Assembly (NCBI GenBank): GCA_023512725.1
Contig: JAILZB010000008.1
Span: forward strand, 1 to 37,247
DNA length: 37,247 nucleotides
Origin: Chloroflexota bacterium
GTDB lineage: Bacteria; Chloroflexota; Dehalococcoidia; SpSt-223
Direction: 5' to 3'
Both the position numbers and the translations under genes were made by a program. Shown piece after piece: positions 2,437-8,825 of this stretch (positions within the stretch are counted from its first letter, which is position 1; each line of letters opens with the position of its first letter). The notes under the pieces are model-generated. The model made no database searches. It was not told the origin of the DNA and worked only from the letters and a program-made list of their open reading frames with translations.

Positions 2437-3123
2437 ATGCTTAACTATCACCTGACGACTGAGCGCTGCGAGCTGGGTGCTGCTGACCGCCAGGAGCTCG
2501 AGAAGCACCTCCGGCGGCTGGAAGCCCAGCTGCGCCACGTCGATCCCGACCTCGTCGAACTGGACCTCAAGATCGAGCGCCACGCGCGACGCGATGAGTA
2601 CCGCGGCAGTGTCCGTCTGTTCGTGATCTCCCAGGTACTCACGGCGAAGCGCAATGCTGCGCCAACGATCCGAGCATTCTTCAAGCAGGCGTTCGACGAC
2701 ATCGAAGAGCAGCTCCGGCGCTTCAAAGCAAAGCTTCGGCGGGAGTATGCCCATGAGCGCAAGCGGGCTTCGCTCTCGTCGGCGGCTGTGCGCTTCCGAG
2801 AGCGAGAGTTGCTCGAAGAGCGCGAGCTTCTTGACCGGGCACTGGCGGGCGACCGCCAGGCGTTCGAGCAGCTGGTCGAGGCGGAACTGCCAGGCCTCGA
2901 CCGTGTCATCACGCGGGCGCTGGCAGAGGCTGGTCGCCAGCCCACTTCCGAGGAAGTCCAGCACATTCTGGCCGATGTCCTCACCTTCGCCTTCCGCGAG
3001 CTGGCCCGCAAGCCGGCGCGCTGGTCGCTGGGCGGTTGGCTGGCCTGGCTGGCCCGGCGCGAGATCGCGCGGGAGGCGCGCGGGCTGGCGGTTGCGCAGT
3101 CGGCCGAGCGGCCGGAGAGCTAA
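2437..3123 (+). CDS. HPF/RaiA ribosome-hibernation domain fused to a sigma region 2-like domain
   Basis: 228 residues. Residues 1-104 look like the HPF/RaiA (S30AE) fold that binds the ribosomal decoding region during stress. Residues 105-131 form a very charged helical linker. Residues 132-215 read like sigma-70 region 2 of ECF-type factors: an A-L-A-G-D-R-Q-A-F-E-Q-L-V-E opening, a helix at the position of the core-binding segment, and a W-L-A-W-L-A-R-R-E-I segment resembling region 2.3/2.4. There is no region 4 and no usual long-HPF C-terminal dimerisation domain. The start at ATG 2437 has GAGGAG at good distance. A DUF2267 gene follows after 26 bp, probably in the same operon. The domain calls are by eye; the sigma-like half is the less certain one. 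Confidence 0.75.
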   Translation: MLNYHLTTERCELGAADRQELEKHLRRLEAQLRHVDPDLVELDLKIERHARRDEYRGSVRLFVISQVLTAKRNAAPTIRAFFKQAFDDIEEQLRRFKAKLRREYAHERKRASLSSAAVRFRERELLEERELLDRALAGDRQAFEQLVEAELPGLDRVITRALAEAGRQPTSEEVQHILADVLTFAFRELARKPARWSLGGWLAWLARREIAREARGLAVAQSAERPES

Positions 3124-3149: not shown

Positions 3150-3569
3150 ATGACTACGCTGCATCTTGAGGCATTTGAGACGACGTTACAGAAGACGGCA
3201 AGTTGGCTCAAGGAGGTGATGCACGAGCTGGGAACCGACGACCGCCACCGGGCTTACTCGGCCCTCCGCGCGGTGCTCCATGCCCTCCGCGACCGCCTGA
3301 CGGTAGAGGAGGCCGCCCAGCTCGGTGCCCAACTCCCGATGCTGATCCGCGGCTTTTACTACGAGGGGTGGGACCCCAGCGGAAAGCCGCGTAAGGAACG
3401 GCACCGCGAGGAGTTCCTGGCTCATATCCGCTCTGCCCTGCGGGATGAGCCCGACCCTGAGCGGGTAGCGCGGGCCGTCTTCGCGGTGCTCGCCCGCCGG
3501 GTGAGCGAGGGCGAGATCGAAGATGTCAAGCAGATGCTCCCGCGCGAACTGCGAGAGTTCTGGCCTTAG
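3150..3569 (+). CDS. DUF2267 family protein
   Basis: 139 residues, a soluble all-helical protein matching DUF2267. The sequence has an N-terminal helix (about residues 8-25), an R-A-Y-S-A-L-R-A-V-L-H-A-L-R-D-R-L segment (about 34-50), an F-Y-Y-E-G-W motif near 69-74 and a C-terminal Q-M-L-P-R-E-L-R-E-F-W ending. Members of this family are often found near stress genes and no enzymatic function is established. The start ATG 3150 has GAGGAAG 6-7 nt upstream. It follows the hibernation-factor gene by 26 bp, which suggests co-expression in stationary phase or stress. Confidence 0.85.
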   Translation: MTTLHLEAFETTLQKTASWLKEVMHELGTDDRHRAYSALRAVLHALRDRLTVEEAAQLGAQLPMLIRGFYYEGWDPSGKPRKERHREEFLAHIRSALRDEPDPERVARAVFAVLARRVSEGEIEDVKQMLPRELREFWP

Positions 3570-3799: not shown

Positions 3800-6700
3800 G
3801 TGCGCAGGCTGGGCACTTTGCTCGCGCTCCTACTCGGGTTTGCGGTGTGGCCGGCAGCCGCCAGTCCGCCCAGCACCGCCGTGTCTCTCGTCATCAGCGA
3901 ACTCGACCCCGACCAGTCCGGCCAGGATACCCTCGAATTCGTCGAACTGGCGGGGCCGCCTGGAATGCCGCTCGCCGGCTACCGGTTGGTGTTCTTCAGC
4001 GCGGGGAGCACGCCCCCGCGGGCCTACCGAGTGGTCCGTCTGGATGGGCAGCAGTTGGATGCTCGCGGCCGGCTAGTCGTCGGCTCGCCGCTCGTCGCGA
4101 ACGTGGCGGTGGTGGCCTGGGAGATCAACGGCCTCCAGAACGGGGGCGGCACTCCAGATGCGGTGGCACTCTACCGGGACGATGCTGCTCCGCTCATTCC
4201 AACGCCAGCCGGGCTCGTCGACGTGGTGGTCTACGGTGACCGCGACGACCCCAGCTTTCGCGCCCGCTTCGACCCTCGCAATCCACCGCCCCTGCAGCCG
4301 CTCGACCGGCCAACCACCGCGATCGGGCGCACGAGCAGTGGTAGCTTCGCCTCCGACCTGCCTCCCTCGCCTGGCTTTCCCAATGCCCCTGTGCGCTTGA
4401 ACGAACTTCTCGGCGATGGCAGCGTGGAACTGCTCGGGACGCCCGGCACGTCGTTGGGCACCGCTCGCCTCCAGGTGTGGGATGGTGCTGGTAGCTTGCT
4501 GGCCGAGCGGCCATTGAGCGGTGTGCTCTCCCGCGGGGGGAGTTTTCCCGGTGGCCTACTCCTCCCGCCCTTCGCTGCTGCCGTGCCAGCTGCCGGGGAG
4601 ACGCGCGTGCTCATCCTGCTCGCGGAGGGGGAGGTGGTCGATGCGCTCGCCCTGGGAGGGCAGCCTGGCCCGCTCCTCCAGCAGTTCGGCCTTCCGCTGG
4701 CCCCCCTCCCCCGGGAGGGTCTGGCCGTCGGCCGGGTTGGTGGCCTCGGGGCGGCGTTCGGCCCGGTCATCCCGAGCGGTGGCGGCCCGAACCAGCTGCC
4801 GCCGGTAGCGACGGTGGCGATCGGGGAGGCCCGCGGGCCAGCCGGGCTACCGCTCCGCTGTCCCGGCCCGCCAGCCTGGAGTGGAAGGACAGTCCGCCTG
4901 GAAGGGGTGGTGACGGCGCGGCTTCGGCGTGGGGGTGAGAACATCGCCGTCCTCCAAGATGAGGGTGACGGCGACCCGCTGAGCGCCGATGCCATCCTGC
5001 TCCCCGGCCTCGTGGAACTGGCCGTTGGCGAACGTGTGGTCGTGAGAGGCAGCCCAACCCTGAGGGAGGGTCAAGCCGTCCTGGCGAATGCTGTCCTAGA
5101 GCAGCGCCTCGGGTCGGCCGCCCTCCCGTCGCCACTGGTCATACCGGCTGGACCGCTCACTCCGTGTGACTGGGCTCGCTGGGACAGCATGCGAGTGCTT
5201 CTCCCGGCGGGGGCAGTTGCCGCGAGCCCGCGGGTGCTGCTCGCGGGTGGTGATTCGCTCGTCGATGTCCTACTCCCAGGAGGGTTCCCATCGGGGGCAT
5301 TGCCGCGTGTCCTTGGCCGCGAGGCTTCCCGGACGGGAGTAAGCGAAGCCGTTCTCATTCGCCTGACCGCCGAAGCCCTGCGCGCGGCTGACCTCACGGC
5401 GGTCCTTCCCCCGCTCCGCACCTTCGATACGCTTCCCGGCGAGGTGGTGGGGGTGGTCACGCACTGGCGGAGGCGCTGGGGGCTCGCGGTGACAGAACGT
5501 CCTCTGATCGCTGAGGGCACCTTGCTCCCTCCGCCACCGCTCGCTGCGGAGGGGAGTGCGCTCCGCCTCGCGACGTTCAATGTCCGTGACCTGTTCGATG
5601 CCCTCGACGACCCGACCGACCCGGATGACAACCTGGGGGCACCACATGTCCCCGCTACCCTCGCTGCCTACCGGGCGCGCTTGGAGGCACTTGCCCAGCT
5701 GGTGCTTGGGCGCCTCGGCGCACCCGACCTACTCGCCTTGCAGGAGGTGGAGGACCAGGACCTTTGCCGGGAGGGAGGCCAGCTGAGTGGCCACTGCAGC
5801 ACGACCGATGGCGCTGACGGCACGATCGACGTCCTGCAGGACCTGGAAGCAGTGCTCGCCCGCCAACCCGGGGCTCCGCCCTACCGGGCTCTCGCTGACC
5901 GGGCTGGCCGCGATGAGCGCGGGATCCTGAGCGCGTTCCTCTACCGCCTGGACCGTCTGACCCTGCTTGGTGAAGCGCAGGCCCAGAACGCTGTGGCTGA
6001 GCCGATCGTGGTGGCCGACGGCGTGAGCGAGCAGCTCTTCACCCGGGCGCCGCTGGTGGCGCGCTTCCGCACCAGCGCGGGCGACCTGCTCATCGCGGTG
6101 GCCGTCCATCTCAAGAGCGACCCCACCGACTTTCGCCCGCGGCGGAGTGCCCAGGCCGCCTGGGTGGCGCAGCTCCTTCAGGGGGAAGCGCGCCAGGACC
6201 CGCGGGTGTTACTGGCCGCGCTGGGAGACTTCAATACCCCGCTCGGCTCGCTAGCGCTCGCGCCGCTTGCTGCTGCGCTCCCAGGTGGGACGCTCTTCTC
6301 AACGATGGCGGGGGTACCACCAGCGCAGCGCTACAGCTACCTCTTCGATGGCGTGGCCGAGCCGATCGATGACCTGTGGCTTTCCCCAACCCTTGCCGCT
6401 CGCTTGCAGGAACGGGCGGTGCTTCATCTCGCTGCGGACTGGCCGGACCTCGCGCCCGGTGAGCGGGGGACGCCCCGCCTGAGCGACCACGACCCGGTGG
6501 TGGCAAGTTTCGGCCCGACCGCGCGCTACCAGGCGTTCATTCCGCTGGCGCTCCGCTCAGAGCGGCGCGGATCTCCGCGGCGTGCTCGCGTTGGTGGTCG
6601 GCGATCCGGCGGAAGACCCCTTCCACGGTGGTCCATTCCCCGGTGGTGCGGCGCCCCTCGCGGAGCAAGGTCGCCTCGTCGAGCGAGTCGAGGAAGGTGA
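3800..6700 (+). CDS. Secreted nuclease: lamin-tail, OB-fold and endonuclease/exonuclease/phosphatase domains
   Basis: 966 residues. A signal peptide covers about residues 1-22 (ending A-A-A-S). A lamin-tail-like domain follows (about 29-190), with a second weaker one near 198-345. An OB-like segment of the kind seen in extracellular nucleases spans about 365-440. The C-terminal domain (about 588-905) is an EEP nuclease with metal and catalytic residues N594, E649, D810, N812, D896 and H897. It probably degrades extracellular DNA or another phosphodiester. The start is GTG 3800 with no ribosome binding site. [11 protein letters not shown] segment near 911-920 resembles the terminal motif of many Chloroflexota secreted proteins. 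The last about 47 codons beyond it are antisense to the dinB-like gene, so the original stop may have been lost. Confidence 0.85.
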   Translation: MRRLGTLLALLLGFAVWPAAASPPSTAVSLVISELDPDQSGQDTLEFVELAGPPGMPLAGYRLVFFSAGSTPPRAYRVVRLDGQQLDARGRLVVGSPLVANVAVVAWEINGLQNGGGTPDAVALYRDDAAPLIPTPAGLVDVVVYGDRDDPSFRARFDPRNPPPLQPLDRPTTAIGRTSSGSFASDLPPSPGFPNAPVRLNELLGDGSVELLGTPGTSLGTARLQVWDGAGSLLAERPLSGVLSRGGSFPGGLLLPPFAAAVPAAGETRVLILLAEGEVVDALALGGQPGPLLQQFGLPLAPLPREGLAVGRVGGLGAAFGPVIPSGGGPNQLPPVATVAIGEARGPAGLPLRCPGPPAWSGRTVRLEGVVTARLRRGGENIAVLQDEGDGDPLSADAILLPGLVELAVGERVVVRGSPTLREGQAVLANAVLEQRLGSAALPSPLVIPAGPLTPCDWARWDSMRVLLPAGAVAASPRVLLAGGDSLVDVLLPGGFPSGALPRVLGREASRTGVSEAVLIRLTAEALRAADLTAVLPPLRTFDTLPGEVVGVVTHWRRRWGLAVTERPLIAEGTLLPPPPLAAEGSALRLATFNVRDLFDALDDPTDPDDNLGAPHVPATLAAYRARLEALAQLVLGRLGAPDLLALQEVEDQDLCREGGQLSGHCSTTDGADGTIDVLQDLEAVLARQPGAPPYRALADRAGRDERGILSAFLYRLDRLTLLGEAQAQNAVAEPIVVADGVSEQLFTRAPLVARFRTSAGDLLIAVAVHLKSDPTDFRPRRSAQAAWVAQLLQGEARQDPRVLLAALGDFNTPLGSLALAPLAAALPGGTLFSTMAGVPPAQRYSYLFDGVAEPIDDLWLSPTLAARLQERAVLHLAADWPDLAPGERGTPRLSDHDPVVASFGPTARYQAFIPLALRSERRGSPRRARVGGRRSGGRPLPRWSIPRWCGAPRGARSPRRASRGR

Positions 6701-7025
6701 GCGTCTCCTGACGGACGCGCTGGAGTTCTGCCAGCAGCTCCTGCGGGGTGCGCGCAGCATGCTTCTCGATATTGCGCCGGTTGTAGCGATCGAGATCGAA
6801 ATCCGGGCGGTAGAGGTCCTGGCCGGCGGCAATTCCCCGGGCGATGAACAGGTTGCCTGCCTCTCCCGTGACTAGGTGGCTAAGCGTATCACGCACCGTC
6901 CATCCATCGGCGGTAGGGGTCCGGCGCTCCCAGTGCTCAGGGGGGAGGTCAGCCACTAGGGCGAGCACTTCCTGGAGGGCGGCGGCAAGATCGGCGCGGA
7001 GGGCAGCTTTGCGGTCGCTGGTCAT
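6537..7025 (-). CDS. DinB-fold metal-binding protein
   Basis: 162 residues, a four-helix-bundle protein of the DinB/YfiT-like superfamily. Likely metal ligands are H50 (in L-S-H-L), H144 and H148 (H-Q-R-E-H), in the usual spacing for this fold. Members include thiol-dependent transferases and proteins of unknown activity, and the substrate cannot be told here. The start ATG 7025 overlaps the radC stop by four bases, so it is translated after radC. The 3' end overlaps the convergent nuclease frame by 164 bp. Codon use (strong G/C at third positions) favours this strand as the real coding strand in the overlap. Confidence 0.85.
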
Positions 7026-7741
7026 CGCAGTACTCCTTCAGGAGGAAAGCCGAGCCCCCGTTCCTTCAGCGAGAGGTAGCGCTGGCCCGCTACGATCAGG
7101 TGGTCGAGGACGTCGATATCGAGCAAGCGGCCGGCTGCGACCAGGTCAGCGGTCACGGCGATATCCTCGCGGGAGGGGGATGGGTCCCCTGAGGGATGAT
7201 TGTGCACGATCGCCACGGCGGCAGCATTCTGGCGGATCGCCTCGCGAAACACTTCCGCCACCCGCACGACGGAGCGGTTGAGGCTGCCCAAGTAGAGGTC
7301 CTGCACGGCGAGGACCTGGTGCTTGGTGTTCAGCAGGACAACGCGGAGCATCTCGCGGTCTAAGAGCGCCATGTCGGGCAGGCAGAACTCGGCGATATCG
7401 GCTGGCGAGCGAACCGTCCGGCGCTCTTCCGGGGCCAGGGACACCGTCCGGCGGCCGAGTTCGATGGCGGCGAGCAGCTCGACTGCTTTGGCCTCCCCAA
7501 TGCCGCGCTGGGCCATCAGCTCAGCCACGCTCGCCCGGCCGAGCGCGGCCAGCGAGCCGAAGCGGCTGAGGACCCGGCTGGCAAGGTCGAGCACGCTCTC
7601 GCGGGCGGTGCCAGTGCGCCAGAGGATCGCGAGCAGTTCGGCGTTCGAAAGTGCGGCCGGCCCGTGGCGGAGCAGCCGCTCGCGGGGGCGGTCGGCGCTG
7701 GGAAGGTCGCGGATCAGGAGGTATCCAGGACGTTCAGACAC
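7022..7741 (-). CDS. radC: RadC family JAB-domain protein
   Basis: 239 residues from GTG 7741. The N-terminal part has a helix-hairpin-helix-like segment ([12 protein letters not shown]). The C-terminal JAB/MPN metalloprotease-like domain carries the [11 protein letters not shown] motif and a downstream D-H-L-I-V segment that complete the zinc site. The historical link to DNA repair is not established and the function is uncertain. GTG 7741 is chosen because GGAG lies 8 nt upstream and the family N-terminus (R-D-L-P-x-x-x-R-P-R-E-R-L) follows. A longer frame to 8041 exists, but it crosses the promoter region and has no family resemblance. It forms an operon with the DinB-fold gene. Confidence 0.9.
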
Positions 7742-7772
7742 CGCTGCTCCGTGGGCTGCCAGCCAGGGGAGC

Positions 7773-7800
7773 TTGCGCCCTGGCGCCAGTGCGGTACAAT
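7773..7800 (+). promoter_or_regulatory. Rightward promoter toward the sigma-factor gene
   Basis: TTGCGC (7773-7778), a 16-bp spacer and TACAAT (7795-7800). It lies between radC and the sigma gene and would give a leader of about 230 nt. The -10 forms one arm of the inverted repeat listed next. Confidence 0.45.
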
Positions 7801-7818
7801 CGCACGTGGGCATTGTAC
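7794..7818. promoter_or_regulatory. Inverted repeat made of two facing -10 boxes
   Basis: GTACAAT (7794-7800) and ATTGTAC (7812-7818) are exact inverted copies around an 11-bp spacer. The left arm contains TACAAT for rightward transcription and the right arm contains TACAAT on the minus strand (7817-7812) for radC. The two promoters would fire toward each other and overlap, or the repeat is a regulator site. Confidence 0.5.
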
Positions 7819-8039
7819 TGCCTACCCCAATGGCGGGGACGAATCGCTTGAGCTGATCCCGTCTTCTAGGAGCGTGGCTGCAGCCGGGGCACCCAAGGAG
7901 CATCTCGGTCGCTGCTGACCGGAGCCCGGTGCCAGCCATGCCAGCAAGACCACCCTCGGTGGTGACCGGCCGCAAAAGTGCTACGGTGCGTGCCGACTGC
8001 TGCACGCGGGCGACCGGCACCCGATGGAGTGACGCGCTC

Positions 8040-8825
8040 ATGATAGGACTTGACGACCGGCCCGCAACGGAGGCCAGACCAGCGGCGCATGCGTCCGCAG
8101 AGGTGCCTTCCCCACCGGGCCACCCCTCTGCGGGCGAACTGGGAAGTAGGGCCGAACCTCCCCGCGAGCGTGCGGCCGAACGACGGCGGTTCCAGCAGTG
8201 GCTCCGCCAGCGCTTGCGCGACCGCCTGGTGCAGGAAAACCTCGGGTTGGTCTACCGCGAGGTCGCCCGCTACCGCGCCCACTGCCGCGACCTGGCCGAC
8301 CTCGTCCAAGAGGGCTGCTTAGGGTTGATCCACGCGGCCGAGCGTTTCGACCCTGCTCGCGGCGTGCGCTTCAGCACCTACGCGGTGCCCTGGATCCGCC
8401 AGGCGGTTGACCGGGCGGCGCGAACCCACCAGCGGATGGTGCGCCTACCGCGCCGCTGGCGCGAGACGCTGGAAGGTGATGGGCAACTGCGGCCAGAACT
8501 CCTCCCGGCTGCCTCGCTCGACTGCCCTCCCCACGAGGCGGCGGAGGAGCCACTGGCGGCCAGTCTTCCCGACCCGACGGCCGACCCGGAGCATGATGCC
8601 ATCACGGCTGTGCTAGTTGAGTCGCTCGCGGCGGCCCTCAGCCGCTGCCCGGAACGGGAACGGGAGGTCATTCGGCGGCGCTACGGGCTGGACGGTCATC
8701 CCCCACAGACGCTCGAGGCGATCGCCAGTGAGCTTGGGATCTGTCGGGAACGCGTCCGCCAGCTCGAGGCCGCCGCCCTGCGCCGCTTGCGTCTGTGCGA
8801 AGGCTTCCTCGACCCGACGCGATAG
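8040..8825 (+). CDS. Sigma-70 family RNA polymerase sigma factor
   Basis: 261 residues from ATG 8040. Region 2 (about residues 55-135) is well conserved: [18 protein letters not shown] and [14 protein letters not shown] for core binding and -10 recognition. Region 3 is shortened to a variable linker with proline/alanine (about 145-195). Region 4 (about 198-250) has [13 protein letters not shown] and a helix-turn-helix ending R-E-R-V-R-Q-L-E for -35 binding. This is a group 2/3-like factor rather than the housekeeping one. The start is uncertain: GGAG is 11-14 nt upstream of ATG 8040, and an open frame extends to 7929. The MBL hydrolase gene follows immediately. Confidence 0.88.

Follow-up and report, generated by a model that had tools for sequence, protein, structure and literature searches.

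Ribosome hibernation factors of the HPF/YfiA/RaiA type, short or long, carry an S30AE domain (PF02482), to which the long forms add a dimerising tail (PF16321). In sigma70, residues D403, Q406 and E407 of region 2.2 contact the beta-prime clamp of RNA polymerase. A sigma-like domain can also serve as a mimic instead of a sigma factor, as in the anti-anti-sigma factor PhyR, which consists of a receiver domain followed by sigma regions 2 and 4 and which binds NepR. Hibernation factors with an added domain are already known, an example being HibA, an archaeal HPF-CBS fusion (PMC13324472). Burroughs and Aravind (PMC6514570) reported a persistent link between baeRF genes and HPF; in the passages covered, neither the sigma-like genes nor the fusion is mentioned. 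Finally, heat-resistance and stress islands of the tLST/LHR type carry a gene called orf11, which, in a laboratory strain of E. coli, is not among the tLST genes that lowered heat or chlorine resistance when deleted (PMC8407380). No description of an HPF-sigma fusion was found in the open-access literature, covered mostly as titles and abstracts and with subscription papers and supplements outside the scope; neither this combination nor the fact that tLST orf11 is an instance of it appears to have been described.

The protein analysed here is encoded in a 37,247-nucleotide stretch of contig JAILZB010000008.1 from a Chloroflexota bacterium, hereafter the window. Like HibA, it joins an HPF/RaiA domain to an unrelated module, which is a CBS module from archaea in one case and a sigma region 2 fold in the other. 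Its open reading frame starts with the ATG at 2437, preceded by a plausible ribosome-binding site of the GGAG type, and its stop codon ends at 3123, giving 228 amino acids (Table 1). Next to this gene are an ammonium transporter-like ORF and the DUF2267 gene, which is probably co-transcribed with it; stress-island genes are absent from this neighbourhood, and a scan for promoters and terminators around the fusion gene found none.

Table 1. Features of the fusion gene and its downstream neighbour (positions in the window)
Feature	Position	Strand	Basis
HPF-sigma2 fusion gene	2437..3123	+	ORF, ribosome-binding site and translation; orthologues align from the same N-terminus
S30AE/HPF domain, residues about 1-105	2437..2751	+	Pfam PF02482 and S30AE tree
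Arg-rich linker, residues about 106-119	2752..2793	+	AlphaFold2 confidence low over 103-121
Sigma region 2-like helical domain, residues about 120-216	2794..3084	+	AlphaFold2, Foldseek, hhalign
Equivalent of the core-binding 2.2 helix, residues 170-190, ..VQHILADVLTFAFREL, degenerate signature	2944..3006	+	Sigma alignment
DUF2267 gene, 26 bases downstream of the fusion	3150..3569	+	Pfam PF10025, E 2.7e-43

The preliminary description of this DNA had recognised an HPF/RaiA domain in the N-terminal half, and Pfam bears this out: S30AE matches residues 6-101 with an E-value of 1.6e-6 and 29.2 bits, above the curated cut-off of 23.7. Run on the single sequence, AlphaFold2 gave no usable model for this half (block pLDDT 28-61), and the assignment therefore rests on Pfam and on alignment. 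The protein nevertheless differs from the described hibernation factors. It scores 21.9 bits against TIGR00741, the NCBIfam equivalog model for HPF/YfiA, whose cut-off is 40.9; PF16321 is absent from its Pfam matches up to an E-value of 10; and in a tree of S30AE domains the fused and the short, stress-type sequences form a subfamily of their own, which supports of 100/100 separate from YfiA, from HPF and from the phylum's long HPFs. No long-HPF dimerising tail was detected in the genome of the window.

The C-terminal half has no Pfam match, and two independent tests identify its fold. NCBIfam models of ECF sigma factors match it weakly (best E 2.7e-4). AlphaFold2, again from the single sequence, models it with a pLDDT of 86.6 when folded alone and with block values of about 70-88 when the full protein is folded, and Foldseek against the PDB ranks region 2 of E. 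coli sigmaE first, the best 27 matches all being sigma factors aligned at region 2, with probabilities mostly of 0.9-1.0, TM-scores by target of up to 0.73 and E-values of 0.01 and up. Such modest E-values are explained by the small size and all-helical nature of the domain; most probabilities are near 1 and the matches agree, and a second Foldseek run had a similar outcome. Profile-profile comparison with ECF region 2 by hhalign points the same way (probability 98.1%, with a score of 76.4, where none of 200 column-shuffled controls exceeded 18.7); since the four ECF sequences used in it had been found via the query, it is not counted with the independent tests. Other searches with this domain gave little: a sequence profile search of the PDB put designed helical repeats on top and was uninformative, and phmmer with the single domain returned one match, an ECF sigma at E 0.91. 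A scan of genome contigs yielded three Enterobacterales loci that match the C-terminal half only. The protein ends 12 residues past region 2, and Pfam finds in it neither a region 4 nor a receiver domain, so that it differs from PhyR at both ends. A sigma region 2-like domain lacking region 4 is thus what the preliminary description had read from the sequence and what the NCBIfam, hhalign and structural comparisons agree upon. A structural model unlike sigma region 2 would have refuted that reading, and the model obtained resembles it; the anatomy, S30AE followed by a region 2 fold with no region 4, is near certain.

The same two-domain protein is present in five further Chloroflexota genomes, at 34-60% identity. 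Three orthologues (in G415, G506 and G359) are 58-60% identical and belong to one other class, while those of G023 (45%) and G088 (36%) come from the same class as the window. Apart from the G359 copy, which stops at a contig end, region 4 is absent from these fusions. The fusion is rare: it was found in 3 of 294 genomes of the window's class, in 4 of 400 sampled across the phylum, and in 3 of 29 belonging to the other class. A chance joining of two ORFs was considered and is excluded because five other genomes carry the same fusion. Contamination was considered as well, given the 7.55% listed for this genome and the fact that the best orthologues lie in another class; however, MraY on the window contig is 85-86% identical to the MraY of two congeners and 59% or less identical to others, and the contig therefore belongs to the genome. 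In the two congeneric genomes (G001 and G002) S30AE occurs only as a short, unfused gene, and neither the fusion nor the DUF2267 gene has a match, for which reason the two look like an accessory pair. Besides the fusion, a canonical S30AE protein is present in three of the six fusion genomes (G023, G088, G506), whereas no second S30AE protein was detected in the remaining three (the window's own, G359 and G415); with a completeness of 90.7%, the window's genome could have one that was missed.

Related genes occur in other arrangements. In three further Chloroflexota genomes (G636, G570 and G616; loci L032, L033, L034) S30AE is encoded by a short gene without fusion, the next gene is a separate sigma-like one that includes both region 2 and region 4, and a nicotinate phosphoribosyltransferase-like gene comes after it. 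A sigma-like gene lies directly upstream of a baeRF family 10 gene in the window's own genome (contig C32), in G359, in G023 and on an Azospirillum plasmid. The published link between HPF and baeRF (PMC6514570) recurs here with baeRF family 10, and the gene clusters connect S30AE, sigma-like and baeRF release-factor genes. In G506, a cluster at L028:8444-10920 (-) comprises an ORF with region 4 only, a baeRF family 10 gene, a gene for a 92-aa protein and then the HPF-sigma2 fusion, so that regions 2 and 4 are on separate chains. The fusion locus of G023 resembles a stress island, with genes for ClpB, an SDH protease (sharing 60% identity with its counterpart in the Agrobacterium island), a rhomboid protein, baeRF10 and a sigma-like protein. 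At L030:10648-12719 (-) of the same genome, the sigma-like gene is followed by a baeRF10 gene whose product has an N-terminal HxxxCxxC stretch resembling the zinc anti-sigma domain zf-HC2, at 17.4 bits against a curated cut-off of 22.2. Elsewhere, in G034 (L010:481-1500), an array of near-identical in-frame repeats lies upstream of an ECF sigma gene.

The family extends beyond the phylum. A search of plasmids with the window protein as query gave no match; with the Azospirillum sigma-like protein as query, relatives of about 380 aa were reached on plasmids of Agrobacterium, Caulobacter, Sphingomonas, Roseomonas, Burkholderia and Enterobacter, in which an N-terminal S30AE domain is followed by sigma regions 2 and 4. 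Pfam detects S30AE in four of the five scanned, at E-values of 6e-5 to 4e-3, one of them over the curated cut-off, and the Caulobacter and Agrobacterium proteins exceed the ECF cut-off of TIGR02937 (53.9 and 45.7 against 42.9 bits). Most of these genes sit among genes for ClpK-type ATPases, FtsH, Hsp20, HdeD, YfdX, thioredoxin or KefB, and the islands include ClpK/ClpB, Hsp20, FtsH, SDH protease and rhomboid genes. On an Azospirillum plasmid (L079:5558-7832), genes for DUF5335, a sigma-like protein and baeRF10 are consecutive within a DnaJ/USP/DegQ stress region, and DUF5335 is also found upstream of a Phenylobacterium relative (L080). One member is tLST orf11. The copy on an Enterobacter roggenkampii plasmid (L082:4611-5756), annotated as hypothetical, is a diverged S30AE-sigma2-sigma4 fusion, too diverged to give a Pfam S30AE match; aligned with the Burkholderia protein, it shows 33% identity across 366 columns. 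Among 5426 complete E. coli genomes, 152 have orf11, labelled 'hypothetical protein'.

The window protein resembles these proteins (e.g. Enterobacter WP_182972122.1) in placing a divergent sigma region 2 after S30AE, in the loss of the core-binding Q, and in that both domains group with theirs in trees; by contrast, the Proteobacterial proteins add a region 4-like domain and sit in heat-resistance or stress islands. BLASTP aligns it with the Agrobacterium relative at 25% identity over residues 21-206 (E 2e-8), and in a tree of region 2 the fusions and the linked sigma-like genes stand apart from true sigmas (93/92). Judged by these comparisons, it is a member of a wider HPF-sigma family, homologous over both domains, the grouping being likely but not certain, with short domains and moderate supports.

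The preliminary description had further suggested that the protein could link ribosome silencing to RNA polymerase. Whether the residues for such a link are in place was assessed by locating the 2.2 segment in an alignment with 13 real sigmas, namely 11 sigma domains of the same genome together with rpoE and sigW. At the positions equivalent to D403, Q406 and E407, the real sigmas have D/E in 13, Q in 11 and E in 10 of 13. The six Chloroflexota fusions have H/R, A/T and D/R/Q, respectively, so that the D..Q.E signature is absent from all six (the window protein reads H..A,D), although the third position is D in four of them, a mild change. The asparagine of the IAxN motif is lost as well. The Q406 equivalent is gone from the whole clade, fused and unfused alike; because it is also missing from L100 and L104, two of the genuine sigma domains that this genome encodes, the signature is not absolute and the loss of Q406 alone is not decisive.

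Over the six fusions, mean pairwise identity is 52% in the sigma-like half against 38% in the HPF half, and the former has 24 invariant positions in six genomes of different families; being the better conserved, the sigma-like half is under selection. Within it, helix 1 (RELLDRALAGDRAAF) is 70% identical, the 2.3-2.4 segment (KPARWSLxGWL) 53% and the 2.2 helix 38%. In ECF sigmas (those of the same genome, rpoE and sigW) the profile differs, the 2.2 helix being the most conserved of the three segments at 42%, the others standing at 32% and 39%. The domain has therefore been retained for some function, probably one other than ordinary core binding. The window protein shares with sigmaE and SigW the region 2 fold, and departs from them in region 4, core-binding signature, IAxN asparagine and conservation profile.

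The explanation that I favour, tentatively since it falls just short of probable, is that the protein is a stress-type ribosome hibernation factor in which a sigma region 2 has been exapted as a docking module. Under stress, the S30AE domain would occupy the decoding cleft of the 30S subunit as HPF/YfiA do and silence the ribosome, ribosome binding and silencing being extrapolated from the S30AE family. The sigma-derived domain, lacking region 4 and the core-binding signature, would no longer act as a sigma factor and would dock another protein or a nucleic acid via its conserved helix 1 and 2.3-2.4 segment. It might pair with another molecule of the same protein, in the manner of long HPF; other candidate partners are a baeRF10, a sigma-like protein, an anti-sigma and nucleic acid. 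In favour of this explanation are the S30AE match and the region 2 fold, the conservation in six genomes with its bias towards the sigma-like half, the decayed 2.2 signature, the failure to detect another S30AE protein in three of these genomes, and the stress-island and baeRF surroundings of the relatives. The domain may replace the dimerising tail of long HPF, dimerisation being a guess. It is a case of a transcription-factor domain joined to a translation-silencing one. On the favoured explanation, orf11 and its relatives should bind ribosomes, a prediction for which no test was found in the papers covered. The deletion data on orf11 would fit a protein that preserves ribosomes or helps them recover and whose effect killing assays do not register, and they equally fit no role there.

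If the domain instead still bound the beta-prime clamp helices of core RNA polymerase, the protein would be a sigma competitor, as first proposed, or a bridge between ribosome and polymerase. The region 2 fold is clear, and among the Proteobacterial relatives the ECF cut-off of TIGR02937 is exceeded and an acidic residue mostly kept at the D403 position. Yet with the clamp-binding residues replaced in six of six Chloroflexota fusions, the Q gone clade-wide, and the 2.2 helix less conserved than any other segment of that domain in the fusions, the polymerase link finds no support in the window protein and binding becomes less likely, to the point where I consider this account rather unlikely. 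Should any member of the family still touch RNA polymerase or an anti-sigma, it would form a direct physical wire between the state of the ribosome and transcription. The second of these contacts is at the heart of another account, in which the domain would act as a sigma mimic or in a partner switch, binding an anti-sigma or a separate region 4 protein and thereby placing a stress sigma under the control of ribosome occupancy. The Pfam models of the PhyR sigma-like domain match the Burkholderia relative (E 1.1e-5 and 6e-4), the baeRF10 near the G023 fusion bears the HxxxCxxC stretch typical of anti-sigmas, and the G506 fusion shares its cluster with a region-4-only ORF. However, the zf-HC2 match is under its cut-off, genes of this kind are missing next to the fusion in the window, in G415 and in G088, and the G506 ORF may be no more than a sigma-like gene cut short, as G000 and G359 have it in full length; the mimic is accordingly a doubtful proposition to me.

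A plain hibernation factor whose tail is simply what remained once region 4 was lost, with no specific role, would account for the missing region 4 and the decayed 2.2 signature. It sits badly with a sigma-like half that is more conserved than the HPF half and has its invariant positions across six genomes, and I hold it to be quite improbable. Slightly more improbable still is a ribosome-coupled split sigma, in which the HPF-sigma2 protein would combine with a separate region 4-bearing protein and its release from ribosomes would switch on a stress regulon. Conceivable partners are the region-4-only ORF of G506 and, in the window's own genome, the sigma-like gene linked to baeRF10. If true, this would be a two-subunit sigma reporting on the state of the ribosome.

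Further along the window, a 966-aa protein with a signal-like N-terminus is encoded at 3800-6700 (+) and has weak matches to a Lamin Tail Domain and to endonuclease/exonuclease/phosphatase. A RadC-like ORF at 7022-8041 (-) and a full sigma-70-type ORF at 7929-8825 (+) are divergent and overlap at their predicted 5' ends, so that one of the two true starts probably lies further in.
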